From the NCBI RefSeq assembly GCF_014641635.1, contig NZ_BMIC01000002.1, forward strand, positions 1 to 64,000: 64,000 nucleotides of DNA, read 5' to 3'. Shown here in pieces: positions 9,972 to 62,388 of this stretch; the stretch's first letter is position 1; the number at the start of each line of letters is the position of its first letter. Source of the stretch: Aquaticitalea lipolytica (GTDB lineage Bacteria; Bacteroidota; Bacteroidia; Flavobacteriales; Flavobacteriaceae). The position numbers were made by a program, and so were the translations under genes. The notes below the pieces were generated by a model, which was given only the letters and a program-made list of their open reading frames with translations, made no database searches and was not told the DNA's origin.

Positions 9972-10113
9972 AAAAAGAGGCTGTCTGAAAAGTTTAAAAA
10001 ATCTGTCATTCTGAATTTATTTTAGAATCTTAATTATTTGATTTTAAACTTGTTATAGAATCTGAAACAAGTTCAGATTGACAAAATATTGTCTTTTTAG
10101 ACAACCTCTTTTT
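9972..10113. repeat. Nested palindromic repeat element (MITE/REP-like)
   Basis: The outer arms 9972-9991 (AAAAAGAGGCTGTCTGAAAA) and 10094-10113 are near-perfect inverted repeats of 20 bp. Inside lie a second inverted pair, GTCATTCTGAA (10005-10015) with TTCAGATTGAC (10072-10082), and a third, AACTTGTT/AACAAGTT (10047-10054/10066-10073). The element fills the gap between two convergent genes and could also end both transcripts. GTCATTCTGAA-type palindromes are, as I recall, dispersed repeats in flavobacterial genomes, and GAGGCTGTCT resembles insertion-sequence termini. No transposase is present. Confidence 0.65.
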
Positions 10114-10132
10114 AGTTGTTATAAATTTATTT

Positions 10133-10813
10133 TTATTCTGGAGTATTTTCATTTTCACCCAAAGCTCTCTTTTCGCATGTTTTACAAAGTTCAGAAATAC
10201 CTCTTTGCTCAAACGATTGCTTTACAGTTCCAGTAGTTTTATTGTCTCTGTTAGCTATATGATAACAATCTTCATAAATATGATATTTGTTTCCTGCACT
10301 TGTCCAATGTACATTGTCAGGCACATTCATATCTTTTAAAACAGACGTTTGCTTATTAATTTCTTCGGTATATTGTTCTACTGAAGGCGGATTAAAATCA
10401 ACGCCAGATATTCCAGCAACTAGCATAGCTACTACAGCAATAGAACCAGCAATGCCTTTAGTTTTTCCGCTTAAATCTTTGTTAGTAAAAATTAAAATCA
10501 CCAAAGGTAAAAAGGCTAAAACACCCATTATTGCACCTAGCTGACTTTGTACAAAGAATTTTACTTTATCCTTTTCTGAAGCAGGATCTAGCTTGTTTGC
10601 TTTTTTCCATAGCATTGAAGCTACTATAGCTAAAGCCAAAATAACAACGATAACAACAATTAACCATACCATTGTTTCGTCGCTAATTAATTTAAAAATT
10701 GCAAAAAACTGAAGCGCAATGGCTACAATCCAAGCCAAGAATGCAAATACTCTAAACTGTTTTGCTTTAGCCTTGCTTTCGTCGCTTGCTACAAATACTT
10801 TTTGATCTGACAT
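10133..10813 (-). CDS. Multi-span membrane protein with C-terminal Ada-like zinc ribbon
   Basis: 226 residues. The N-terminal half has four likely membrane spans (about residues 22-43, 47-69, 90-110 and 118-136). The C-terminal 60 residues are soluble and carry VHWTSAGNKYHIYEDCYHI followed by GISELCKTCEKRA. The pattern YHxxxxC ... G...CxxC resembles the Ada-type zinc-binding motif found as a C-terminal appendage in ComEC- and nuclease-related proteins (YHxxxCxxl ... PCxxC). Zinc binding is an inference from that spacing. The biological role is unknown. It stands alone on the minus strand between the palindromic repeat and the ACT protein. Confidence 0.55.
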   Translation of the reverse strand: MSDQKVFVASDESKAKAKQFRVFAFLAWIVAIALQFFAIFKLISDETMVWLIVVIVVILALAIVASMLWKKANKLDPASEKDKVKFFVQSQLGAIMGVLAFLPLVILIFTNKDLSGKTKGIAGSIAVVAMLVAGISGVDFNPPSVEQYTEEINKQTSVLKDMNVPDNVHWTSAGNKYHIYEDCYHIANRDNKTTGTVKQSFEQRGISELCKTCEKRALGENENTPE

Positions 10814-10947
10814 ATATTTTCTTCTTTAATATTGTTTTGATAATTCATCAAAAACAATTCGTTTTTTTAAGTGGTATCTGACCTCCACAAATTAGTTAGT
10901 TATTGTTACTAATTTCGTTTTTTTTATTGAAAACGACAAAACTAATT

Positions 10948-11358
10948 TTATTTATAGTTTTTAGACAATGCAGTTAATACTTCAACTGCCTTGCTAGCAT
11001 CTTTTTTATCTACAAAAATATGATCGTGATAATAGCCAGCAATTACGTTACAACTTATATTATATTTAGTTAGTTCGGCTGAAAACACAGCTGTTAATCC
11101 CACAGCATCTAATGAGGAGTGTACTGTTAGCGTAATCCATGATGCTATATAGTTATAAGGCAATTTAAGCACATCTGCTTTATGTTTTTCAATAACTATG
11201 GTAATGCCTTCTTTTTCTTTAAACTCACAAATGGTAATGTCTCTGCCTATGTGTTTATAGTCTTTAACAGTTACAAACACATAATCTCCATCATTTAGTT
11301 TGGGTGTCATGCCTTTTACTAATTGTGCTAAATTGGTTTCTCCAGTTGTGTGATTCAT
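10948..11358 (-). CDS. ACT domain-containing protein
   Basis: 136 residues. The N-terminal part (about 1-60, with [23 protein letters not shown]) matches the short lead domain found in a bacterial family of stand-alone ACT proteins. The C-terminal part (about 65-135) has [24 protein letters not shown] and [13 protein letters not shown], typical of an ACT regulatory fold. Such proteins bind amino acids or similar small ligands; the ligand here is unknown. It is downstream of the threonine operon on the same strand, but a cassette-like unit (11382-12510) now lies between them. Confidence 0.8.
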
Positions 11359-11381: not shown

Positions 11382-11515
11382 GTTCGTTTAACGGTTTAGG
11401 CTAGGAAAAGTTGCGGTTTTGAAAACGCAATTTTCCGATGTTTAAATTTAGTGTTTTTGTGTTTTAGAAACATTCTATTTTATTGAATTAAGCAATTTTT
11501 TTAGCCATTGTTAGC
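11382..11515 (-). repeat. Unit A 3' element, attC-like fold
   Basis: Outer arms TAAC (11389-11392) and GTTA (11510-11513) pair. Inner arms GGCTA (11399-11403) and TAGCC (11502-11506) pair. A strong hairpin lies between them: GGAAAA/TTTTCC (11404-11409/11431-11436) enclosing TTGCG/CGCAA. On the gene strand the element starts AGCTAACAATG and ends GTTAAACGAAC, where GTTAAAC fits the integron core GTTRRRY. The TAA stop of the gene lies inside the outer arm. A 65-nt asymmetric segment on the gene side is larger than in classical attC sites. Confidence 0.5.
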
Positions 11516-12440
11516 TGTAGCCTTTTTTTATCAATTCTGTTGTAAATTCTATATTTTGAATTTCAATATTATATTCTCTGCATTTATCAATAGACTCTTT
11601 GTCAAAAATTTTTATTGCAATTTTTTCATTTTCTTCTCGTTTTTTTGAATTATTACAGAATACAATTTCTCTAAATGAAATTATGTTATAAATCATATTA
11701 CTGCAAAAATGAGTCATTCTAAAATCTCGTTCCGAGTCGAACAGTTTTGTCTTGATACTAGTCTTATTCTTTTTTTCATCATAAGTCTGAAAAGAGAGTG
11801 AATTTGAAATATCCCATTTCATTCCAACTTCTTTCGTTTCTGCATCTAAAAGATATATTGCTTCAAAAGAAGGGAAAATTCTTAATGCATGTTTATATGC
11901 GTTGTATTCATCTCTATTTGAAAAGTCTTTAGCGATTTCAATAATTCCATATTTTACGGCGTCAATACTTTTCTCAATTGACTTAAAAATTTCTTCTGGA
12001 AACTTTTCTTTGGAAAATACTCCTAAATAAAACATGTAATGCCCGATAGAAATCTTATTACCATTAAATTCAATAATTCTGTCAAGAAAATTTAATTTTA
12101 GTTTTTCACTTGCAATGTCTTCAATTCTTTTGTAATTTTTTCTCCAATCGGATTTGACTAATTTTTTCAGTATGAGAGTATTGTCAGGAATATTATCATT
12201 GTTAGGAAGGAAGGCGAAAAAGAACTCAAAAAATGTTTCTATTGAATGAAAATAATTTTGCCTTAAATCTGCTTGTAAAATGAATTTTGTGTTTTTAGTT
12301 AAATTATTATATAATTCAAACTTTTTAATTTCAATATCCAATTGGTCACTTTCAGCTATAGCTTTCTTGAGATTAATTGCTTTTACTAAATGGAACTCTT
12401 TTAAGTAACTTGTATAAAATAATTTGTAATCAGTTTCCAT
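11511..12440 (-). CDS. Unknown protein, cargo of cassette-like unit A
   Basis: 309 residues, soluble, helix-rich, with no signal peptide or membrane span. I do not recognise the family. The segment SNRDEYNAYKHALRIFPSFE (about residues 172-191) is a compact Arg/Asn/His-containing motif reminiscent of the R...H active-site motif of HEPN-type helical nucleases, but this is a weak resemblance. Conserved-looking aromatic patches (YFHSIETFFEFFFAFLP; MTHFCSNMIYNIISFREIVF) surround it. The ATG (12440) sits 10 nt after the shared 5' element, and the TAA is embedded in the 3' attC-like element, so gene and ends form one compact unit. Confidence 0.7.
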   Translation of the reverse strand: METDYKLFYTSYLKEFHLVKAINLKKAIAESDQLDIEIKKFELYNNLTKNTKFILQADLRQNYFHSIETFFEFFFAFLPNNDNIPDNTLILKKLVKSDWRKNYKRIEDIASEKLKLNFLDRIIEFNGNKISIGHYMFYLGVFSKEKFPEEIFKSIEKSIDAVKYGIIEIAKDFSNRDEYNAYKHALRIFPSFEAIYLLDAETKEVGMKWDISNSLSFQTYDEKKNKTSIKTKLFDSERDFRMTHFCSNMIYNIISFREIVFCNNSKKREENEKIAIKIFDKESIDKCREYNIEIQNIEFTTELIKKGYS

Positions 12441-12450
12441 TTTTTTTCAG

Positions 12451-12510
12451 GTTACAGCTAATGCGACGATATGGATTGTTTCAATTATCTATATCGACAG
12501 TTAAACGAAG
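12451..12510 (-). repeat. Unit A 5' element shared with unit B
   Basis: On the gene strand it begins AACTTCGTTTAACT, has a hairpin CGATATAGAT / ATCCATATCG, and ends GCATTAGCTGTAA just before the gene start. It matches 61450-61510 at about 52 of 61 positions. Read in the opposite direction it starts AGCTAAT and ends GTTAAACGAAG, so it is an inverted relative of the 3' element. Confidence 0.6.
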
Positions 12511-12539
12511 TTCGCCTTTTTTTCTGACAAAATCAAGCT

Positions 12540-23409: not shown

Positions 23410-26400
23410 ATGTTTATGAGCAATTTTACCCGAAGTGGTGGACGAGCCAAATTTTGGCAGTCTGCGACTAATTTATCGTGTTGTAGCATTGATTCTCTTA
23501 CAAAGCAATTTAAAAGCATAAAGGCATTAGCTTTTATTGCTCTTTTCTTGTTTAGTATGGGCTCTATGCTTGGACAATCAACGGAAAGAACAGTGTTCTT
23601 TAACCGATGTTTTAATGACATCCCACCTGCACCTTTTACATTAGAAGAGGTTGCTGGTCTTTTTCAAAATGATTGTGAGGCAGGTACCTTAACAGTAGAT
23701 CTAGAGGAAAATATTTCTGGAGATGACTGTGATTGGACTGCAACATATACTTATTTTGTTAAGTGTGATGGTGTTGAAATCAATGATTTAAAACTTATTT
23801 ATTATGGAGGAGATAGAACTGCTCCAGCTTTGATTGATGGATTTCCTGAAGATCAAAGTAATCTCAATTTATGTTTTAATGAAATTCCAGCAGGTCCAAC
23901 TGAAGCAGAAATAGCTGCATATTATGCAGATAACTGTGGTGGAGCAGTTACTGTTATTAAATCAGGACAACCAACAGGTGATAACTGTGATTGGAGTGTG
24001 ATTTACACTTATGAGATTTATGATGAATGTGGAAATAGAGCTGAAGATGCAAAAATAGAATATAGCGGAGGAGATACTGAAGCTCCTGAGCTTGTTAAGG
24101 ATGCTGAAATTCCAACTGGTGACCTTAACATGAACACGTGTTTTGCTAATAAAGCTCAAGGTCCAACAGAAGAAGAAATTGCTGCTTTGTTTGAAGACAA
24201 TTGTAGCAGTGTAATTACTGTTACTAAAACAGAATATTCTAAAGGAACCGATTGCAAATGGATGGCAATATATGATTACACAATTCAAGACGAATGTGGT
24301 AATTTTGCTACACCAATAAAAATAACTTACCAAGGTGGTGATACTGAAGCTCCAGTTCTTGCTGGTGTTCCAGATGACATAACGGTAAGTTGTATTGATG
24401 AAATTCCTGATCCTGCTGATGTTACAGCTACAGACAACTGTACTGAAGATTTAGGAAAAATAGATTTATTAGAAGACGATAGTAATTTAGGTATTGCTTG
24501 TTCAGGAGGTACTTTAATTAGAACTTGGACAGCTACAGATGACTGCGGTTATTCAACTTCAGCAACTCAAGTTATTACCGTATTACCAGCACCTCCAGCT
24601 GAATTTGATACTCCACAAGATTTCACAATCGATTGTGGAGCTGTTGCAAATTTTCAAGCACCAACATTATATTATAGTAATGGTGTAGAAGGTGGAGCAT
24701 GTGCAATTTATGGTGAAGCTCAAGGAACTTACACTCCATTTGAAGGAAGTTGTGGTTCTTTTGAAGTTTACTATACTTTTATGGATGAATGCGAAAGAGA
24801 AATCAATGCTAGCTTAACTGTTACAGTTGAAGATAATACTGCTCCAGAAATTACTCCTGGTTCAGATATGACTGTTGAATGTGATGGTGCTGGTAATGCT
24901 GCTCAATTATCGGCTTGGTTAGCTAACAATGGTGGAGCTACAGCTACAGATAATTGTGGAAATGTAACTTGGTCAAATAACTTTACTAGTCTATCAGACT
25001 TATGTGGTGCTACAGGCTCTGCAACAGTAGAGTTTACAGCTACTGATGATTGTGGAAACGATTCAAAAACTACTGCTACATTTACAATAGAAGACACTAC
25101 TAATCCAGATATCACTCAAGCTTCAAATATGACAGTAGAGTGTGATGGAGAAGGTAATGCTGAACAATTAGCGGCTTGGTTAGCTAACAATGGAGGAGCA
25201 ACTGCTTCAGATACTTGTGGCGATGTAACTTGGTCTTATAGTTGTGGTGGAGCTCAAGGTGAACCAGAGTATGTAGGTTCATTCCTTACTAACAGTGGTC
25301 CAAATTGGACAACTAATCCTCCAGTTTACTCTGCACAAGAAGCAGCAGCTTTACTATATGGAGGAAATGCATCTGATTACGTAACGTCAACAGATCCAAA
25401 TTCTATTAATAATTTAGCTTGGGTGTCTACATGGGGAGGTCCATGTGCTCAACATAGCCAAGATTATAAGTTAGATGAAGGTAACCCAGGTTACAATGAC
25501 CCAGATCCAGGAGTTGGATTAGCGGCATCTGCTTATGTTCAAGATCATTGCTATGAAGCAAGCCATATCAATTATGTATGGAGAGTTAATGGTGGAAATG
25601 GACTTTGTGAGTTAAGTGACTTATGTGGAGCAACAGGAGCATTAACTGTAGAATTTACAGCGACTGATTCTTGTGGTAACCATTCTAAAACTACTGCAAC
25701 TTTTACAGTAGAAGATACAACAGATCCAACTATCACAGAGGCGTCAGATATGACTGTTAATTGTGATGGTCAAGGTAATACACAACAATTAAATGCATGG
25801 TTAGCAAATAATGGAGGAGCTACTGCTTCTGATGACTGTTCTGATATTGTATGGTCTAATAACTTTGAAGGTCTTTCAGATTTATGTGGTGCTACAGGTG
25901 CTGCGACAGTAGAATTTACTGCAACAGATGAATGTGGTAATGAGTCTAAAACTACTGCTACGTTCACAATTCAAGATATTAATAGTCCTCCAATTACAAA
26001 TGAGGCTCAAGATATGACTGTTGATTGTGATGGTGAAGGTAATGTTGAAGAATTACAAGCATGGTTAAACTCTAATGGCGGAGCTACGGCTTATGATTTA
26101 TGCTCTGAAGTAACTTGGTCAAATAATTTTGATGGTTTATCAGATTTATGTGGAGCAACTGGTTCAGCTACAGTATTATTTACGGTTACTGATGCTTGTG
26201 GATTAAGTTCTTCAACAGAAGCTACATTTACAATACAAGATGTTACTGACCCGACTATTACTCCTGCTTCAGATATGACTGTGGAATGTGATGGTGAAGG
26301 TAATACAGCAGCTTTACAAGCTTGGTTAACTAACAATGGTGGAGCAACAGCTTCAGACGATTGTTCAGATGTAGTTTGGTCAAATAATTTTGATGGTTTA

Positions 26401-29400
26401 TCAGATTTATGTGGAGCAACTGGTGCTGCAACAGTAGAATTTACTGCTACTGACGATTGTGGTAACGAATCTAAAACAACAGCTACTTTTACTATAGAAG
26501 ATACTACTAACCCGTCTATAGATAATGCAGCTGAAGATATGACTGTAGAATGTGATGGTGCTGGTAATGTAGCACAGTTAGAGGCTTGGTTAGCTAGCAA
26601 TGGTGGAGCTTTGGCTTCTGATGGTTGTTCTGATGTTACTTGGTCTAATGACTTTGATAGTTTGTCAGATTTATGTGGTATGACTGGTTCAGCTTTAGTA
26701 GTATTTACTGCTTCTGATGACTGTGGTAACGCATCTAAAACATCTGCAACATTTACAATAGAAGATACTACTAACCCAGACATAACTCCTGCTTCAGATA
26801 TGACAGTAGAGTGTGATGGTGATGGTAATACAGCAGCTTTACAGGCTTGGTTAGCTAACAATGGAGGAGCAACTGCTTCAGATGTTTGCGGGAATGTAAC
26901 TTGGTCAAATAATTTTGAAGCTCTTTCAGATTTATGTGGAGCTACAGGTGCTGCAACAGTTGAGTTTACAGCTACTGATGATTGCGGAAACGAGTCTAAA
27001 ACGACTGCTACTTTCACAATAGAAGACACTACTAATCCGGATGTTACGGCAGCTTCAGATATGACGGTTGAGTGCGATGGAGAAGGTAATGCTGAACAAT
27101 TATCGGCTTGGTTAGCTAACAATGGTGGAGCAACTGCTTCAGATACTTGTGGCGATGTAACATGGTCTCATAATTATTGTGTTGGAAATAATGGTGAAGG
27201 TTCACTTCAAACATTTATAGAAAATTTTGATGGACAATTTGCAGAGCAATTTTTTGTTAATCAAAATACACCAGTAAATAATTATTTCACTTCACCTTAT
27301 GTGTCATTTACTGCAGGTTCATGGGAGGTATTAGATTTTAGTACATTTAACTGTGCACTATTAACTAATCCAAATGCACTTACTTGGAATACTCAATTAA
27401 CATCTTCTAATGCTACATTATCATTCTCTTTACCAGCTTCTGGTGTTGAATTTGATATTGCAGATAATACTCAATTAGAAGTAACTGTAAACCATGCTGG
27501 TGGATCATCAGTTTATGTTTATAATGGTAATGGTAATGCAGGTAATCATATAGTATTGGCAGAATCTGGAATTACTAGTTTAGATTTTGTTGTACAAAAT
27601 TTTGGAAATAACTACGGTTGTTTAGATAATTTACAATATTCAGTTGGTGCAGACCAAGGCGATTGTGTTTCTTTATCTGATGAATGTGGTGCTACTGGCT
27701 CTGTAACTGTAGAGTTTACAGCTACTGATGCTTGTGGTAATACTTCTAAAACAAATGCTACATTTACTATAGAAGATACAACTAATCCTGAAATTACTCC
27801 AGCTGAAGATATGACTGTTGAGTGTGATGGGCAAGGTAATACTGAAGCTTTACAAGCTTGGTTAGCTAACAATGGTGGAGCAACTGCTTCAGACGATTGT
27901 TCTGACGTAGTTTGGTCTAATAACTTTGATGCTTTATCAGATTTATGCGGGGCTACAGGTTCAGCAACAGTAGAATTTACTGCTACTGATGACTGTGGTA
28001 ATGAATCTAAAACGTCAGCTACTTTCACAATTGAAGATACAACAGCTCCTGAGTTCACTTATGTTCCAGAAGACTTGTTGTTAGAGTGTGATGAAACTGC
28101 ACCAGATGAAAATGCACAAGCAGGAGATACATGTGGCGAAACAACAGTTTCATACACAGATTACTATACTAACACACCATGGGAAGCTTATTCTAATGGA
28201 GGTGATGGTACTGTAGACTTCTCTAACTTACCTAACGGTTTCACTGTTGTAGGTTCAGATACAGGTTCTGGAAATGGATACTATACAGTAGGAGCAACAG
28301 TAGTTAAAAATGTAACTCTTTCTTTTGATTGGGATTATAATAGTGATTTTGATTCAGCGTCATGGGATAATCTTGTTTATTATGTAAACGGAGCACCTAC
28401 AACGTTATTAGGATCAGGATCAACTGGAAGTGGAAGCTTTACAATAGATTTAGCTCCAGGTGATTCATTTGCAGTAGGTATTTATACTGTTGACGATCAA
28501 TTTGGAAATGGTACGGTTGTGATTTCTAACTTATCAATAGTTAATAATCCATTGCCATGCCCATTAACAGATTGCTTTATACGTCAGTTTACTGCAACAG
28601 ATGCATGTGGAAACACATCAACTGCAAATCAAGTAATAAGATTCCAAGATACTACACCACCAGTTATTGAGCCTATGGCTATGGATATGACTGTAGAGTG
28701 TGATGGTCAAGGAAATGTTGAAGCTTTACAAGCATGGTTAGATAGTAACGGAGGAGCTTCTGCAACAGACAACTGTTCAGAAATGACTTGGTCAAATAAC
28801 TTCGAATCGCTATCAGACTTATGCGGAGCTACAGGAGCTGCAACAGTAGAGTTTACTGTAACAGATGCTTGTGGTAATGAGTCTAAAACATCTGCAACAT
28901 TTACAATAGAAGATACTACTAATCCTGATATCACTCAAGCTTCAGATATGACAGTAGAGTGTGATGGAGAAGGTAATGCTGAGCAATTAGCGGCTTGGTT
29001 AGCTAACAATGGTGGAGCAACTGCTTCAGATACTTGTGGCGATGTAACTTGGTCTTATAGTTGTGGTGGAGCTCAAGGTGAACCAGAGTATGTTGGTTCA
29101 TTCCTTACTAACAGTGGTCCAAATTGGACAACTAATCCTCCAGTTTACTCTGCACAAGAAGCAGCAGCTTTACTATATGGAGGAAATGCATCAGATTACG
29201 TAACGTCAACAGATCCAAATTCTATTAATAATTTAGCTTGGGTATCTACATGGGGAGGTCCATGTGCTCAACATAGCCAAGATTATAAGTTAGATGAAGG
29301 TAACCCAGGTTACAATGACCCAGATCCAGGAGTTGGATTAGCGGCATCTGCTTATGTTCAAGATCATTGCTATGAAGCAAGCCATATCAATTATGTATGG

Positions 29401-32400
29401 AGAGTTAATGGTGGAAATGGACTTTGTGAGTTAAGTGACTTATGTGGAGCAACAGGAGCATTAACTGTAGAATTTACAGCGACTGATTCTTGTGGTAACG
29501 AGTCTAAAACTACTGCAACTTTTACAGTAGAAGATACTATAGCACCAACTATTACTGATGCTATGGATGTAACTGTAGAATGTGCTGCTGGTGAAGGCGA
29601 AGGTCAGGTTTCTCCTCAAGCTTGGATTAATGAGTTCCATTATGATAATGATGGTGCTGACACAGGTGAATTTGTTGAGGTAGTAGCTAATTATGATGCT
29701 AGTGCGTTAACAGTTGAACTTTATAATGGAAGTAACGGACAATCATATGGTACACTTGCTTTAACATTAGCAGGTACTAATGGAAGTTATAACATTTATA
29801 CAGCTAGTGGAGCATCTCTTCAAAATGGTGCACCAGATGGTGTGGCATTAGTAAGTGGAAGTTCTGTAATTCAGTTCTTAAGTTATGAAGGAAGTTTCGC
29901 AGCAACTAACGGACCTGCAAATGGAATGAACTCAACTGACATAGGTATCTCTGAACCAGGTAATACTCCTGTTGGTCAGTCATTACAATTAATTGGTAGT
30001 GGTGATGCTTATGCAGACTTTACATGGAGTGGACCATTAGCAAATACGTCAGGAGCAGCTAATACAGGTCAAACATTAGAAGCACCTGCTAATAATGGTG
30101 CAATGACTGTTGAAGAATGGTTAGCAAACAATGGTGGAGCTACAGCTTCAGACGATTGTTCAGATGTGACTTGGTCAAATAACTATACAGGCTTATCAGA
30201 TGGATGTGGTAACACAGGATCTGCAACTGTAGAGTTTACCGCAACAGATGCTTGTGGAAATGAGTCTAAGACTACTGCTACATTTACAATAGTAGATACT
30301 ACAGATCCAGAAATTACTCCAGCAGAAGATATGACTGTTGAGTGTGATGGTGAAGGTAATGTTGCACAATTACAAGCATGGTTAGATAATCATGGTGGAG
30401 CTACAGCTTCAGATACTTGTGGAGATGTAACTTGGTCAAATAACTTTGATGGATTATCAGACTTATGTGGTGCTACAGGTGCTGCTACAGTAGAGTTTAC
30501 TGCTACTGATGAGTGTGGAAACGAGTCAAAAGTGACTGCTACATTTACAATAGAAGATACTGTTGACCCAGAAATAACTCCAGCGTCAGATATGACTGTT
30601 GAGTGTGATGGTGAAGGTAATGTTGCACAATTACAAGCATGGTTAGATAATCATGGTGGAGCTACAGCTTCAGATGATTGTTCTGATGTTACATGGTCTA
30701 ATAACTTTGTAAGTTTATCAGATGAGTGTGGAGCAACAGGTTCAGCAACAGTTGAATTTACAGCAACAGACGATTGTGGTAATCATTCTAAAGTTACAGC
30801 TACATTTACAATTGAAGATACTACGTTACCAGTATTGGTAGGTACAATTCCTCAAGGTCAGTCTAATGTTAATGCTTGTTTTGCAAATATGCCAGCAGGT
30901 CCAACAATAGAAGAAATGGCTGCATTGTATGATGATGGTTGTGGTAATGTTGTTGTTACTAAAGTTTCAACACCATTAGGAAACGATTGTAGTTGGGCAG
31001 TATTACACAGATACGAGATATCTGATGAGTGTGGTAATATGCTACCTCCAGTGAAAATTTACTATAATGGTTCAGATAAAACTGCTCCTACATTAGTAGA
31101 AGGAGCTGTAGTACCTCAAGGTCAATTAGGTATGGAAGCTTGTTATAACGAAATTCCAAATGCTCCTAAAACTGAGGATATTGCATTATTATATACTGAT
31201 AATTGTGGTGGACCAGTAATTGTAACAGGTACTAGCAATATTACAGGTAATGATTGTGCATGGGAAGCTGTTTATACTTTCACTATTAAAGATTCTTGTA
31301 ATAACTATGCACCTAACTTAGTAGTTACATATTCTGGTGGAGATACAACACCTCCAGCATTAGTTGGAACAATCCCAATGGGTCAAAACAGTTTAGACTT
31401 ATGTCTATCTGCAGCACCAGCAGGACCAACTGAAGCTGAAATAGCAGCATTATATACTGATAACTGTGGAGATGTACTAGTTACTAAAACTCCTCAAGTA
31501 TATGGTGATGACTGTAGCTGGATTAAACTATATGTTTACCAAATTATGGATGGTTGTGGTAACTATGCTGATGAAGTTAAAGTTTACTATAACGGAGGCG
31601 ATGCTTCTGGACCTGAGTTTAACTTAGAATGTCAATTTGACGAGCTATTGATTAGTGGATGCTCTGCAACTGCAGATATATCATTAAACATTGGTGATGT
31701 GATTGATCCATTAACAAGTTGGACTGTATCTGGAACGCAGATAGAACCATTAGGATCTTGTGTATCTGATAATTGTACTGCAACTGAAGATATTATCTTA
31801 ACGGTTGTTGACAAAATGGTAGATAATAGTGATGCTTGTGAAGCCTACTTATCTATAACTTTTGAAGCTACAGATGCTTGTGGTAATAAATCACCAGAGT
31901 TGTTTACATGTACTTATGTTGTACGTGATACAGAAGCTCCAGTGCTTAGCTGTCCAGAAGATCAAGATTTCGGATTTAATCCACAACTTGATGCTGAAGG
32001 ATTACCTAATGGTTTAGCTGATAAAGCAAACTTTACAGACAACTGTATAGATGATGGAATGACATTGACTTATACTGATGACTTATCATCAACTCCAGGT
32101 CAAAGTGAAGATTGTAACGAGGTTACAGACCATACTCTTGTTAGAACATTTACTCAAGAAGATGCTTGCGGAAATGTAGGGGAATGTTCAGTTACCTATA
32201 CTTGGAGTACAGGTGATGTTGATGTAGAATTATTCTGTGGTGATGTTATTACAGGAAATACTACTACAGGAGAAGTTAATAACATTAGTTGTGATACTTC
32301 ATTAAACACTGCTAAAGGACTTTGGTATACTATAATGGGTACTGGAGGCGACATAACAGTTAGTACTTGTAGTGCAAACACTACTTACGATACTAAACTT

Positions 32401-33276
32401 GGTGTCTTTACAGATTGTGGCGAAGTATGTGTAACAGGTAATGATGATGCTGGCTCAACAGTTGGTTGTAATCATTCATACTTGCATTCTACATCTACAT
32501 TTGCTTCAGTAGAGGGAGTAGAGTATAGAATCTACGTAACTGGTTGGAGTTCAAACGCTGGTACTTTTGAATTATCAGTAGATTGTGCTTGTCCTAATGA
32601 TTATCCAGAAATTAGTTGTGGTGATGTTGTAAGTGGTAACACAACAACAGGAGCAGTAAACAACATTAGTTGTAATACTTCTTTAAACACTTCTAAAGGA
32701 TTATGGTATACATTAATTGGTACTGGAGACCCTGTAACAGTTAGTACTTGTAGTGCTAATACAAATTATGATACTAAAGTAGGAGTCTTTACAGATTGTG
32801 GAGATGTATGTGTAACAGGAAATGACGATGCTGCTTGTCAACATTCAAGTCTACATTCAACTTCTACATTTAATACTGTGGCAGGACAAGAATACCAAAT
32901 TTATGTAACTGGATGGAGTTCAAGTCAAGGTGCATTTGACCTAACGGTTAATTGTAATGGTGCTCCAGCGCCAGAAGCTAAAATGGCTGATGAAAAAGCT
33001 GAGTTAGACTTTACAGCTTATCCTGTACCATTTGACAATGAGGTATTTATATCTTATACATTTGAATTTGAAACTAACGTAGTTATTGAATTGTATGACA
33101 CTAAAGGATTATTAATCTTAAGTGCAGAAAACAATAATTACAAAGCAGGATCTAAAGGTAAAACTAGATTTGACCTTTCTAGAACTGCTAATCAAATGTT
33201 CTATGTTAAGTTAACTACCAGTCAAGGTACTGTTACTAAGAAAATAGTTTCTTCTTCACCTAATAGAAGACACTAA
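23410..33276 (+). CDS. Giant repeat adhesin-like protein secreted by the type IX system
   Basis: 3288 residues. A 33-residue N-terminal extension precedes a signal peptide (about 34-56, IKALAFIALFLFSMGSMLGQ). Residues about 60-320 hold three modules of the type CFNEIPAGPTEAEIAA ... NCDW ... DECGN. Residues 475-2469 hold about fourteen 87-residue Cys-containing repeats (DMTVECDGEGN, AWLANNGGATASD, LSDLCGATG, VEFTATDDCGN). Five repeats are split by inserted domains at about 610-735, 1256-1415, 1577-1720, 1882-2010 and 2065-2235 (the last lamin-tail-like). Further CxxNxPAGPT modules and two PPC-like modules (about 2941-3190) follow. A T9SS type A sorting domain ends the protein (about 3200-3288, YPVPFDNEVFIS ... 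GKTRFDLS). It is probably a surface adhesin or matrix protein. Confidence 0.9.
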   Translation: MFMSNFTRSGGRAKFWQSATNLSCCSIDSLTKQFKSIKALAFIALFLFSMGSMLGQSTERTVFFNRCFNDIPPAPFTLEEVAGLFQNDCEAGTLTVDLEENISGDDCDWTATYTYFVKCDGVEINDLKLIYYGGDRTAPALIDGFPEDQSNLNLCFNEIPAGPTEAEIAAYYADNCGGAVTVIKSGQPTGDNCDWSVIYTYEIYDECGNRAEDAKIEYSGGDTEAPELVKDAEIPTGDLNMNTCFANKAQGPTEEEIAALFEDNCSSVITVTKTEYSKGTDCKWMAIYDYTIQDECGNFATPIKITYQGGDTEAPVLAGVPDDITVSCIDEIPDPADVTATDNCTEDLGKIDLLEDDSNLGIACSGGTLIRTWTATDDCGYSTSATQVITVLPAPPAEFDTPQDFTIDCGAVANFQAPTLYYSNGVEGGACAIYGEAQGTYTPFEGSCGSFEVYYTFMDECEREINASLTVTVEDNTAPEITPGSDMTVECDGAGNAAQLSAWLANNGGATATDNCGNVTWSNNFTSLSDLCGATGSATVEFTATDDCGNDSKTTATFTIEDTTNPDITQASNMTVECDGEGNAEQLAAWLANNGGATASDTCGDVTWSYSCGGAQGEPEYVGSFLTNSGPNWTTNPPVYSAQEAAALLYGGNASDYVTSTDPNSINNLAWVSTWGGPCAQHSQDYKLDEGNPGYNDPDPGVGLAASAYVQDHCYEASHINYVWRVNGGNGLCELSDLCGATGALTVEFTATDSCGNHSKTTATFTVEDTTDPTITEASDMTVNCDGQGNTQQLNAWLANNGGATASDDCSDIVWSNNFEGLSDLCGATGAATVEFTATDECGNESKTTATFTIQDINSPPITNEAQDMTVDCDGEGNVEELQAWLNSNGGATAYDLCSEVTWSNNFDGLSDLCGATGSATVLFTVTDACGLSSSTEATFTIQDVTDPTITPASDMTVECDGEGNTAALQAWLTNNGGATASDDCSDVVWSNNFDGLSDLCGATGAATVEFTATDDCGNESKTTATFTIEDTTNPSIDNAAEDMTVECDGAGNVAQLEAWLASNGGALASDGCSDVTWSNDFDSLSDLCGMTGSALVVFTASDDCGNASKTSATFTIEDTTNPDITPASDMTVECDGDGNTAALQAWLANNGGATASDVCGNVTWSNNFEALSDLCGATGAATVEFTATDDCGNESKTTATFTIEDTTNPDVTAASDMTVECDGEGNAEQLSAWLANNGGATASDTCGDVTWSHNYCVGNNGEGSLQTFIENFDGQFAEQFFVNQNTPVNNYFTSPYVSFTAGSWEVLDFSTFNCALLTNPNALTWNTQLTSSNATLSFSLPASGVEFDIADNTQLEVTVNHAGGSSVYVYNGNGNAGNHIVLAESGITSLDFVVQNFGNNYGCLDNLQYSVGADQGDCVSLSDECGATGSVTVEFTATDACGNTSKTNATFTIEDTTNPEITPAEDMTVECDGQGNTEALQAWLANNGGATASDDCSDVVWSNNFDALSDLCGATGSATVEFTATDDCGNESKTSATFTIEDTTAPEFTYVPEDLLLECDETAPDENAQAGDTCGETTVSYTDYYTNTPWEAYSNGGDGTVDFSNLPNGFTVVGSDTGSGNGYYTVGATVVKNVTLSFDWDYNSDFDSASWDNLVYYVNGAPTTLLGSGSTGSGSFTIDLAPGDSFAVGIYTVDDQFGNGTVVISNLSIVNNPLPCPLTDCFIRQFTATDACGNTSTANQVIRFQDTTPPVIEPMAMDMTVECDGQGNVEALQAWLDSNGGASATDNCSEMTWSNNFESLSDLCGATGAATVEFTVTDACGNESKTSATFTIEDTTNPDITQASDMTVECDGEGNAEQLAAWLANNGGATASDTCGDVTWSYSCGGAQGEPEYVGSFLTNSGPNWTTNPPVYSAQEAAALLYGGNASDYVTSTDPNSINNLAWVSTWGGPCAQHSQDYKLDEGNPGYNDPDPGVGLAASAYVQDHCYEASHINYVWRVNGGNGLCELSDLCGATGALTVEFTATDSCGNESKTTATFTVEDTIAPTITDAMDVTVECAAGEGEGQVSPQAWINEFHYDNDGADTGEFVEVVANYDASALTVELYNGSNGQSYGTLALTLAGTNGSYNIYTASGASLQNGAPDGVALVSGSSVIQFLSYEGSFAATNGPANGMNSTDIGISEPGNTPVGQSLQLIGSGDAYADFTWSGPLANTSGAANTGQTLEAPANNGAMTVEEWLANNGGATASDDCSDVTWSNNYTGLSDGCGNTGSATVEFTATDACGNESKTTATFTIVDTTDPEITPAEDMTVECDGEGNVAQLQAWLDNHGGATASDTCGDVTWSNNFDGLSDLCGATGAATVEFTATDECGNESKVTATFTIEDTVDPEITPASDMTVECDGEGNVAQLQAWLDNHGGATASDDCSDVTWSNNFVSLSDECGATGSATVEFTATDDCGNHSKVTATFTIEDTTLPVLVGTIPQGQSNVNACFANMPAGPTIEEMAALYDDGCGNVVVTKVSTPLGNDCSWAVLHRYEISDECGNMLPPVKIYYNGSDKTAPTLVEGAVVPQGQLGMEACYNEIPNAPKTEDIALLYTDNCGGPVIVTGTSNITGNDCAWEAVYTFTIKDSCNNYAPNLVVTYSGGDTTPPALVGTIPMGQNSLDLCLSAAPAGPTEAEIAALYTDNCGDVLVTKTPQVYGDDCSWIKLYVYQIMDGCGNYADEVKVYYNGGDASGPEFNLECQFDELLISGCSATADISLNIGDVIDPLTSWTVSGTQIEPLGSCVSDNCTATEDIILTVVDKMVDNSDACEAYLSITFEATDACGNKSPELFTCTYVVRDTEAPVLSCPEDQDFGFNPQLDAEGLPNGLADKANFTDNCIDDGMTLTYTDDLSSTPGQSEDCNEVTDHTLVRTFTQEDACGNVGECSVTYTWSTGDVDVELFCGDVITGNTTTGEVNNISCDTSLNTAKGLWYTIMGTGGDITVSTCSANTTYDTKLGVFTDCGEVCVTGNDDAGSTVGCNHSYLHSTSTFASVEGVEYRIYVTGWSSNAGTFELSVDCACPNDYPEISCGDVVSGNTTTGAVNNISCNTSLNTSKGLWYTLIGTGDPVTVSTCSANTNYDTKVGVFTDCGDVCVTGNDDAACQHSSLHSTSTFNTVAGQEYQIYVTGWSSSQGAFDLTVNCNGAPAPEAKMADEKAELDFTAYPVPFDNEVFISYTFEFETNVVIELYDTKGLLILSAENNNYKAGSKGKTRFDLSRTANQMFYVKLTTSQGTVTKKIVSSSPNRRH
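25108..25680 (+). repeat. Copy 1 of a near-identical 573-bp segment within the adhesin gene
   Basis: Matches 28927-29499 (offset 3819 bp, 1273 codons) with about six single-base differences that I can count. Five are silent third-position changes and one changes Asn to Asp. The segment includes a repeat split by an inserted domain (EPEYVGSFLTNSGPNW ... YVWRVNGGNGLCE). Confidence 0.9.
28927..29499 (+). repeat. Copy 2 of the near-identical 573-bp segment within the adhesin gene
   Basis: Second copy of the segment at 25108-25680. Identity falls off abruptly after GGTAAC at 29499, where the next codon is GAG in this copy and CAT in the other. This indicates a recent internal duplication or gene conversion tract. 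Confidence 0.9.
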
Positions 33277-61327: not shown

Positions 61328-61450
61328 CGTACTATGCATAAATTTTAAAGCTATAATTTACTATTTTGAAGAACGATTTATTAACAACTGTTTATATAAT
61401 GGTTAATATCGTAAATGTAAGTTTATTGATTATAAAATTAAAAAAAGCTA

Positions 61451-61510
61451 ACTTCGTTTAACTAGTGATATAGATAATTAAAACAATCTATATTGTTGCA
61501 TTAGCTACAA
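61451..61510 (+). repeat. Unit B 5' element shared with unit A
   Basis: Begins ACTTCGTTTAACT, contains the hairpin TGATATAGAT / ATCTATATTG (61466-61475/61486-61495), and ends GCATTAGCTACAA immediately before the gene. Differences from unit A in the stem mostly keep pairing, which suggests the structure is under selection. Confidence 0.6.
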
Positions 61511-61512
61511 TT

Positions 61513-62286
61513 ATGAGTAAAATCGATAAGAAAGAAATATTAGTTAGTAGTGCAAAATCCATTTTTGGAGTAATTCCATTTGCTGGTACTGCACTTAATG
61601 AACTTTTTTTTGAATATAATGGTTCCATAAAACAAAAGAGGCTAAATAATTTTATTGATATTCTATCAGAATATTTTGCGAAAAATTCAGATGTCAAAAT
61701 TGAGAATATAAAAACAGAAGATTTCAATGATATCTTTGAGTCTGTTTTAAGAAGAGTTGTACAAACAAAATCAGAATTGAAATTAATTCGCTTTAAGGAT
61801 ATATTAATTACTCAACTAAATAATCCAATTCAAGAAATTGAGCTAGTGGAGTTATATTTAGATTTGATAAGTTCTTTGTCTGAAGAAGAAATTTCCATTT
61901 TACATGGCCACAGAAATTTTGACCTTAACTATGAAGAAGAAATAAATAATCTCAACAAACTACGAGACGAGTTGAATCAAATAACTGAAAAACAAAAACG
62001 AGAAACGATAATTATTAATCAATCTAGATACCATGATGATGAAGTTAGAGTGAAATCTGGAATTGAAGAAATTGAAGACAAAATTGAACCACTAAAAAAA
62101 TTAAGAACATCTGAATATTACGAATTATCATATCAAAAATTTGAATTCTATAAACAAAGATTATTTTCAAAAGGTTTACTAGTTGATAATCGTATGAATA
62201 GAAATGGAAGTTTTGCTTTTCAAAATATGGGAATCACTGAATTTGGACTTGAGTTTCTTGATTTTATAATTAATAGTGAAAAATAA
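61513..62286 (+). CDS. Unknown protein, cargo of cassette-like unit B
   Basis: 257 residues, cytoplasmic. An N-terminal hydrophobic hairpin (SIFGVIPFAGTALNELFFEY) is followed by KQKRLNNFIDILSEYF, then helical segments. A strongly charged coiled coil (about 140-200, EEINNLNKLRDELNQITEKQ and following) leads to a C-terminal segment FSKGLLVDNRMNRNGSFAFQ and ITEFGLEFLDFII that looks like a winged-helix end. I have the impression of similar proteins in accessory and defence-rich regions, but I cannot name a family. The ATG follows the shared 5' element by a few nt. Confidence 0.7.
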   Translation: MSKIDKKEILVSSAKSIFGVIPFAGTALNELFFEYNGSIKQKRLNNFIDILSEYFAKNSDVKIENIKTEDFNDIFESVLRRVVQTKSELKLIRFKDILITQLNNPIQEIELVELYLDLISSLSEEEISILHGHRNFDLNYEEEINNLNKLRDELNQITEKQKRETIIINQSRYHDDEVRVKSGIEEIEDKIEPLKKLRTSEYYELSYQKFEFYKQRLFSKGLLVDNRMNRNGSFAFQNMGITEFGLEFLDFIINSEK

Positions 62287-62290
62287 CAGT

Positions 62291-62388
62291 AGCTAACAAC
62301 GTGTATAATTAATTACTACGAATTTTATAGTCGGAAAATGATTCGCGCACTTTTCCGTAACAAGCCATACACAACAGTGTTAAACAAC
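62291..62388 (+). repeat. Unit B 3' element, attC-like fold
   Basis: Outer arms TAACA (62294-62298) and TGTTA (62378-62382) pair. Inner arms GTGTAT (62301-62306) and ATACAC (62367-62372) pair. The spacers are unequal (two versus five nt), and a central hairpin GGAAAA/TTTTCC (62333-62338/62351-62356) lies between. It starts AGCTAACAACG and ends GTTAAACAAC; GTTAAAC fits the integron core GTTRRRY. Confidence 0.55.

Follow-up and report, generated by a model that had tools for sequence, protein, structure and literature searches.

Two gene loci preceded by the same element

The window, i.e. the whole stretch of 64,000 nt that was analysed, belongs to contig NZ_BMIC01000002.1 of Aquaticitalea lipolytica, whose genome (the own genome hereafter, G000) amounts to 3.14 Mb in 36 contigs. 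Two of its genes, namely gene 1 on the minus strand (11511-12440; 309 aa) and gene 2 on the plus strand (61513-62286; 257 aa), encode products with no Pfam family above cut-off and no PADLOC match. As stated by the original prediction, these products are unrelated, i.e. they do not match each other, and each gene is preceded in the same orientation by a copy of one element, designated here E. Copy 1 (12463-12512, minus strand) and copy 2 (61450-61499, plus strand) match the covariance model of E, R1, at 74.6 and 64.9 bits, respectively. Their likeness is as high as announced, except that the identity put at about 52 of 61 bases is exactly 51 of 61; from AACTTCG to TTAGCT, 50 of 57 bases are identical, and blastn with copy 2 as the query against the own genome retrieves copy 1 at 86% over 65 bp (E 8e-16).

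Behind gene 1 lies a structure at 11385-11519 (minus strand) that matches the attC model, R2, at 73.7 bits, the match running into the right half-site described below, and behind gene 2 a shorter one than the usual ~135 bp at 62288-62386 (plus strand; 71.8 bits). Gene and structure together are recognisably, from their sequence, an integron cassette with its attC. The junctions can be read at both loci, cassette 1 (11392-12461, minus strand) extending from TTAGCT after CA to ..CCG, with the arms TTAGCTGTAACC and GGCTACAGCTAA, and cassette 2 (61501-62379, plus strand) from TTAGCT after GCA to ..GTG, with arms matching at 6 of 8 positions. Beyond each cassette stands a right half-site, R', which is TTAAACGAA at the first locus (11383-11391, minus strand), complementary at 9/9 to TTCGTTTAA of copy 1, and the partly decayed TTAAACAAC at the second (62380-62388, plus strand; 7/9). 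Elsewhere in the window, a very long ORF of 3,288 aa occupies 23410-33276. An Rfam scan of the window returned three tRNAs only and no known RNA family at E, and under laxer settings four loci yielded two weak matches, both short of the gathering score and away from E.

Anatomy and distribution of the element

Read toward the gene, an AT-rich flank, in which TTGA stands at -24, is followed by TAACTTCG, by GTTTAAC as R'' and by a loop enclosed by two hairpin arms; CGTCGCA or a similar sequence comes next, before the cassette. Over 71 copies, the conserved stretches lie at -24 to -17 and at -2 to +12, the AT-rich spacer being less conserved, and TTG is present at -24 in 49 of these 71 related copies. 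In the window, the promoter-like motif presumably consists of TTG (12534-12536), 20 nt and GAACTTCG (12506-12513) before copy 1 (12506-12536, minus strand), and of TTG (61426-61428), 20 nt and TAACTTCG (61449-61456) before copy 2 (61426-61456, plus strand). The sigmaA promoter of Flavobacterium carries an upstream TTG box. As for TAACTTCG, it is one base off TAnnTTTG, the sigmaA box of Flavobacterium as given in a passage of PMC9723704. Altogether, TTG-N20-TAACTTCG suggests a built-in predicted promoter, the conservation of which is suggestive only because the copies share ancestry. From the proposed promoter/translation module, a promoter plus a recombination site fits the data, but nothing was found for a translation module.

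The presence of a hairpin whose differences mostly keep pairing is confirmed. On 32 copies, RNAalifold chose the stem unaided, with compensatory changes at 3 of 9 pairs, and 21 cells of the stem are changed on both sides vs. 6.1 in shuffles, none of 500 shuffles reaching 21; the plain count of compensatory pairs (3) is unexceptional (138/500 shuffles). The outer pair of the stem is CG in 14 copies, TA in 6, AT in 4, GC in 1, TG in 1 and otherwise in 6. Copies whose loop is long, or whose stem is truncated or deleted, were excluded from this alignment (A2, 32 rows). Many copies (L030, L031, L038, L039, L041) are preceded upstream by the palindrome TACGTAGAACTACGTA, which may be the terminator of the upstream gene.

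The two loci originally reported are both real but undercount the element, since R1 finds 22 matches in the own genome at E <= 0.01; blastn gave 26 matches at E <= 1, the lowest of which correspond to chance, and two further copies, both in one array, are devoid of the upper stem. At the level of the family, at least 63 of 299 sampled Flavobacteriaceae genomes match the E model at E <= 0.001, the numbers per genome being lower bounds as the best 20 candidates in each were scored (best 54 for attC). The genomes G000, G001 (same genus) and G030 match R1 and R2 by construction, because the models were built from their loci. Close copies in named genomes (35 stretches) include Algibacter, Bizionia, Lacinutrix, Olleya, Wocania, Flaviramulus, Confluentibacter and Mariniflexile. 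In the R1 set used for site counts, L176 and L177, which repeat L085 and L041, as well as the weak match L033:8243, were left out, and the 71 analysed sites represent 70 distinct ones because L178, which was kept in, repeats L090. The pattern GTTAAACNAANNTC alone says little (8 matches vs. 3.5 expected, 4 of 100 shuffles being as high), and plasmid records searched with the first locus gave no match; the way in which E itself spreads is something we infer rather than observe.

The cassettes and their attC sites

The cassette attCs, usually 133-140 bp long, read AAC, spacer, L box, TTGC..GCAA stem, L' box and G|TT. Their L boxes vary in paired fashion (GTGTAT/ATACAC, GTATAT/ATATAC, GGCTA/TAGCC) and, in 22 of them, covariation of the family, to which the attC of cassette 1 belongs, is apparent with 88.8% of cells paired and 18 doubly changed cells vs. 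5.0 in shuffles (0/500). As in attCs, the order is R''-L''-loop-L'-R' with G|TT and paired boxes, the R'' being complementary to the start of its own cassette. Indeed, the first bases of a cassette after the junction differ from site to site and recur inverted just behind the gene, the cassette start agreeing with R'' of its own attC at a mean of 5.75 of 8 positions vs. 2.79 with swapped partners (n = 40; 0/601 permutations). Among these arm pairs, 28 of 40 match at 6 or more of 8 positions, 2 of the 40 that could not be anchored being scored 0.

Regarding the cargo, the longest ORF is in sense in 38 of 40 intervals from E to attC, and the longest sense ORF spans a median of 0.94 of the interval; in the two remaining intervals (L201, L097), a sense ORF runs past the interval. 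All-against-all blastp of 40 cargo proteins yielded one weak pair. With Pfam at E 0.001, no family was found for 10 of the 20 cargo proteins scanned, whereas the families in the others include WG repeats (2), LRR, PIN, an Mrr-like nuclease, a PF00144 serine hydrolase, SnoaL-like, CarboxypepD-regulatory and MORN, with an EpsG match below cut-off; besides, one G030 cassette encodes a type II methyltransferase. The expectation of a cassette system, with many copies of the element each beside a different gene, was right: the own genome has 22 copies, matches occur across the family and the cargo is unrelated from site to site. What is conserved from site to site is the folded site and not the cargo, as predicted. 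A gene-family leader is ruled out by this unrelated cargo.

In the own genome, 46 attCs were found. An attC lies at most 3.3 kb downstream on the same strand for 21 of the 22 E copies (in 3 cases with another E in between), the exception being C7:122497; in the other positions, i.e. downstream on the other strand, upstream on the same strand and upstream on the other strand, the counts are 0, 2 and 0, respectively. Half of the attCs (23/46) lie behind E, and the other 23 are located at C1:449.9-455.3 kb (9), C3:166.3-171.1 kb (7), C3:123.5-126.0 kb (3), C5:79.6-81.0 kb (2) and, singly, at two positions on C2. The two largest of these groups, L257 (G000:C1:449-456.5 kb) and L256 (G000:C3:165.5-172 kb), are 9- and 7-attC arrays without E, in which no integrase gene was noted; many attCs of L257 are short, about 75-95 bp. 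Over the whole set of sites, 26 of 71 E copies have no assigned attC, some being followed by another E and many having had 1.5 kb of flank examined. In the multi-cassette array L031:5580-8580, each gene has its own E and flank-like pieces recur, by eye, between the cassettes, which is reminiscent of a tandem duplication of the docking unit.

A right half-site split off by the insert, and sites found empty

Behind the last attC of a filled site stands TTAAACGAA or a variant, complementary to R'' of E. At least 8 of 9 bases agree with the complement of the site's own R'' in 31 of 41 filled sites, while 0 of 32 array attCs without E reach 8/9 when compared with TTAAACGAA. The variants pair up, namely TTCACTTAT with ATAAGTGAA at L202, TTCGCTTAA with TTAAGCGAA at L083 and with TTAAGCGCA at L091, and TTCGCTTAT with ATAAGCGCA at L254. 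The half-sites below 8/9 (10/41) include L041:5458 (6), L093 (4), the L033 sites (5, 6), L089 (6) and copy 2 of the window (7); the count took 41 of the 42 sites with a detected attC, L097 being cut by a contig end. Bases that lie beyond whole cassettes thus vary together with R'', as expected if both formed one hairpin before insertion. At the cleavage point, E reads by inspection A|TT in many copies and G|TT in others, the attC consensus having a G there (GTTRRRY).

Empty sites, in which E is joined directly to a TTAAACRAA half-site, account for 5 of the 71 analysed sites (70 distinct), three in G001 and two in other genomes; in the own genome, the pattern used revealed none. The 3 that were folded show the R''/R' and L''/L' stems in one site, and in 3/3 the fold of the bottom strand has the higher stability of the two strands, an indirect hint that the folded bottom strand may be the substrate. 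At L085 of G001, the empty site reads ..ATATCGTCGCATTAAACAAAACC.., and its orthologue in the own genome, L038, aligned over both flanks, reads ..ATATCGTCGCA|TTACACACAATT..cassette..AACAACG|TTAAACGAAATC.., which gives the exact point of insertion. This is the only two-sided pair of an empty and a filled orthologue. For L088/L083, only the right flank aligns besides E. For L087/L037, the alignment is confined to the left flank; on its right side, L037 aligns with another E locus of G001, L089, which suggests rearrangement between E sites. In addition, L087 holds one cassette where the L031 array of the own genome, with both flanks aligned, holds several.

The counterpart of the first window locus in G001 (L084) shares its E, its right half-site and its two flanks, and has a different gene in between, encoding a CarboxypepD-regulatory-domain protein. 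With one orthologous site empty in G001 and the first window site occupied there by a different gene, the cargo moves and the element stays. The original prediction had considered the element as the recombination end of a cassette, which is not borne out, because empty sites join E to TTAAACRAA and the orthologous G001 site carries another cassette: E stays in the chromosome and the cassettes bring their own, different attC at the 3' end. The second window locus yields no empty allele because G001, with the flanks present, carries there about 4 kb of other genes and neither E nor attC; in G030, an E is found near the gene orthologous at this locus, with weak flank similarity only. Around the first locus, window positions 10106-11054 are 98% identical to G001 L084:2552-3500 amid neighbouring stretches at 75-92%, which suggests a recent exchange.

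From all this, E is very probably the left part (R''-L''-loop-L'), of which copy 1 is an example, of a fixed, chromosomal attC-like docking site where an integron-type recombinase inserts cassettes, the scattered sites working like an integron. The right part would be R' (TTAAACGAA), found behind the last inserted cassette, and both parts would form a single hairpin of about 70 bases in an empty site. An integron-type tyrosine recombinase would insert a cassette, in circular form, just ahead of the TT of R'; the gene with its own ~135-bp attC would thereby land in sense orientation behind E and could be expressed from the promoter-like motif 5' of the hairpin. With some two dozen dispersed sites, the genome would function in the manner of an integron whose docking sites are fixed, numerous and scattered. 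The division of the site into two parts, the precise point of insertion, the arms specific to each cassette, the empty sites, the exchange of cargo and its orientation can all be read from the sequence. Counting against this view are the reduction of the own genome's candidate integrase to a fragment, the absence of empty sites there by the pattern used, the half-sites below 8/9, the E copies with no assigned attC, and the second window locus, where G001 has neither E nor attC.

It is unlikely that E is just a dispersed hairpin repeat, i.e. a terminator or leader RNA, struck by cassettes by chance as an attG-type target. Integrases can indeed insert cassettes at genomic attG sites, according to a passage of PMC12901181, and one G001 cassette (L084:3493-4300) sits without E inside an ACT-domain gene, at G|TTGTAAC, the gene being intact in the window (10948-11358); this is likely a secondary-site insertion. 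Chance targeting is nonetheless hard to reconcile with the half of the own-genome attCs lying behind E, with the attC architecture of E and the covariation of its R''/R' pair across the insert, and with TTG and TAACTTCG standing at a fixed position before it.

Candidate recombinase

Pfam detects 10 tyrosine recombinases in the own genome, among which are XerC- and XerD-like proteins (by reading of the sequences) and, as all that is kept of an IntI-like recombinase, a C-terminal fragment ending in ..MIYTHVARKDLLDIKSPLD. This fragment (L082:9990-10400, at G000:C5 ~76.0 kb) is followed by an attI-like sequence and, 3-5 kb downstream, by two attCs; judging by this arrangement, these are the remains of the own genome's integron. 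Full-length relatives of the fragment occur in other genomes. Among 33 integrase loci, attCs are downstream in the same orientation at 14 and divergent at 2, with no other arrangement, which makes 16 of 33 loci with attC; at the other 17, none was seen in the stretch examined, often 1.5 kb. Among the matches listed for the complete genome G015, two long attC runs (C1:2.219-2.263 Mb and 2.733-2.792 Mb), one of which ends beside an integrase gene, are apparently large chromosomal integrons. The attI-like ATATAACNAG|TT stands behind the integrase stop in G015, G025, G029 and G013, as well as behind the own fragment and the G001 gene (opposite strand), the other loci differing there.

Similarity of the G001 protein to Xer and IntI proteins begins at about residue 119, and the protein has 28 residues (290-317) where IntI4 (2a3v) has 71 (177-247), a stretch that we take to be the place of the IntI-specific domain. 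This domain is absent from the G001 protein, and the same break appears in the paired TIGR02249 matches of many genomes; the TIGR02249 cut-off of 265 bits is reached by none of 60 genomes, the G001 protein scoring 185.9 bits. Within NCBIfam, this protein is nearest to NF040815, 'site-specific tyrosine recombinase/integron integrase', at 217.9 vs. a cut-off of 220 bits.

The acting enzyme is likely the Xer/IntI-like recombinase that heads cassette arrays in relatives. XerC/XerD in its place would account for an own genome in which XerC- and XerD-like genes stand next to an IntI-like fragment, but this appears improbable in view of the 16/33 loci (14 downstream in the same orientation, 2 divergent) where arrays of the same attC family lie behind an IntI-like gene. 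A link between the candidate enzyme and the presence of E does not show in the genomes examined, because close relatives of the fragment occur in genomes where no E was detected among the candidates scored (e.g. G003, G008, G009, G013, G015) and the integrase of G030, a genome rich in E, resembles the fragment less. As a separate candidate, E as the attI beside the integrase was rejected: a profile over the integrase loci gave no convincing E (best E-value 0.36), and three integrase/array loci are free of R1 matches; the latter also rejects E as the attC of those arrays.

Leader RNA and transposon end

That E would be an RNA leader regulating the genes that follow, with no role in recombination, is quite improbable. 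It does fold, lies 12-40 nt before many start codons and is preceded by a promoter-like motif; against this, two copies in one array are without the upper stem, a half-site complementary to R'' stands beyond the gene and its attC, and empty sites exist. A leader function could still be an additional role of the docking site. Most improbable of all is the terminus of a transposon or MITE with different passenger genes. In its favour, the unrelated genes are flanked on one side by a conserved repeat and on the opposite one by a short inverted motif, but E is kept in place at empty sites, the insert ends are cassette-specific and pair with each other, and cassettes of the same attC family occur in arrays without E.

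Relation to known integron systems

The docking-site system resembles integrons, sedentary chromosomal ones included, in its cassettes of a gene and an attC, in insertion before TT, in a cassette start complementary to its own R'' and, in relatives, in arrays behind an integrase gene. It differs from them in that half of the attCs here are found at E sites that are dispersed and not near any integrase gene, and in that the integrase of relatives, unlike IntI, is devoid of the IntI-specific domain. As for CALIN or solitary attCs, cassettes occur with no neighbouring integrase gene, and this genome has plain arrays without E too; unlike in CALIN, a conserved, structured and apparently fixed site precedes the cassettes and exists empty. 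Reverse-oriented integrons are known, as in Treponema denticola. The array downstream of the integrase gene in the same orientation, in 14/33 loci, is comparable to these, although the lineage is another one and 2/33 loci are divergent like classical integrons. As for attG sites, E is a chromosomal target for cassettes outside an integron; unlike attG, whose sequence and structure diverge strongly from those of classical att sites (Loot et al. 2024, as reported in a passage of PMC12901181), E is a conserved structured family with attC-like halves.

In the sections consulted, the phylum or group is listed with the carriers of integrons in PMC2426708 and PMC8618304, PMC8352920 names 11 attC models, none of them for Bacteroidetes, and PMC9024848 indicates almost no integrons for the phylum in surveys (see also PMC11023631). 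This near-absence plausibly arises because the usual integron finder, as described in PMC9668308, requires the IntI-specific domain that the recombinase here lacks. The titles and abstracts retrieved on integrons, attC or CALIN in Bacteroidota/Flavobacteriaceae contained no description of such a system, subscription papers and preprints being outside this scope.

We lean slightly towards the broader view of a decentralised integron in part of the Flavobacteriaceae, in which a XerA/IntI-like recombinase without the IntI-specific domain would serve dozens of dispersed, fixed, promoter-bearing attC-like sites, each of them a small platform independent of the others, the whole chromosome acting as the array and all captured genes being expressible at once. 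A defined site, an empty allele and a candidate enzyme are now at hand for testing how cassettes settle outside integrons. In known integrons, the cassettes rely for the most part on a single promoter, which stands at the array head (abstract of PMC11014356); if the view is true, many promoter-bearing docking sites would lift this one-promoter limit and give fast gene gain, and cassette systems would be common in a family for whose phylum surveys report almost none.
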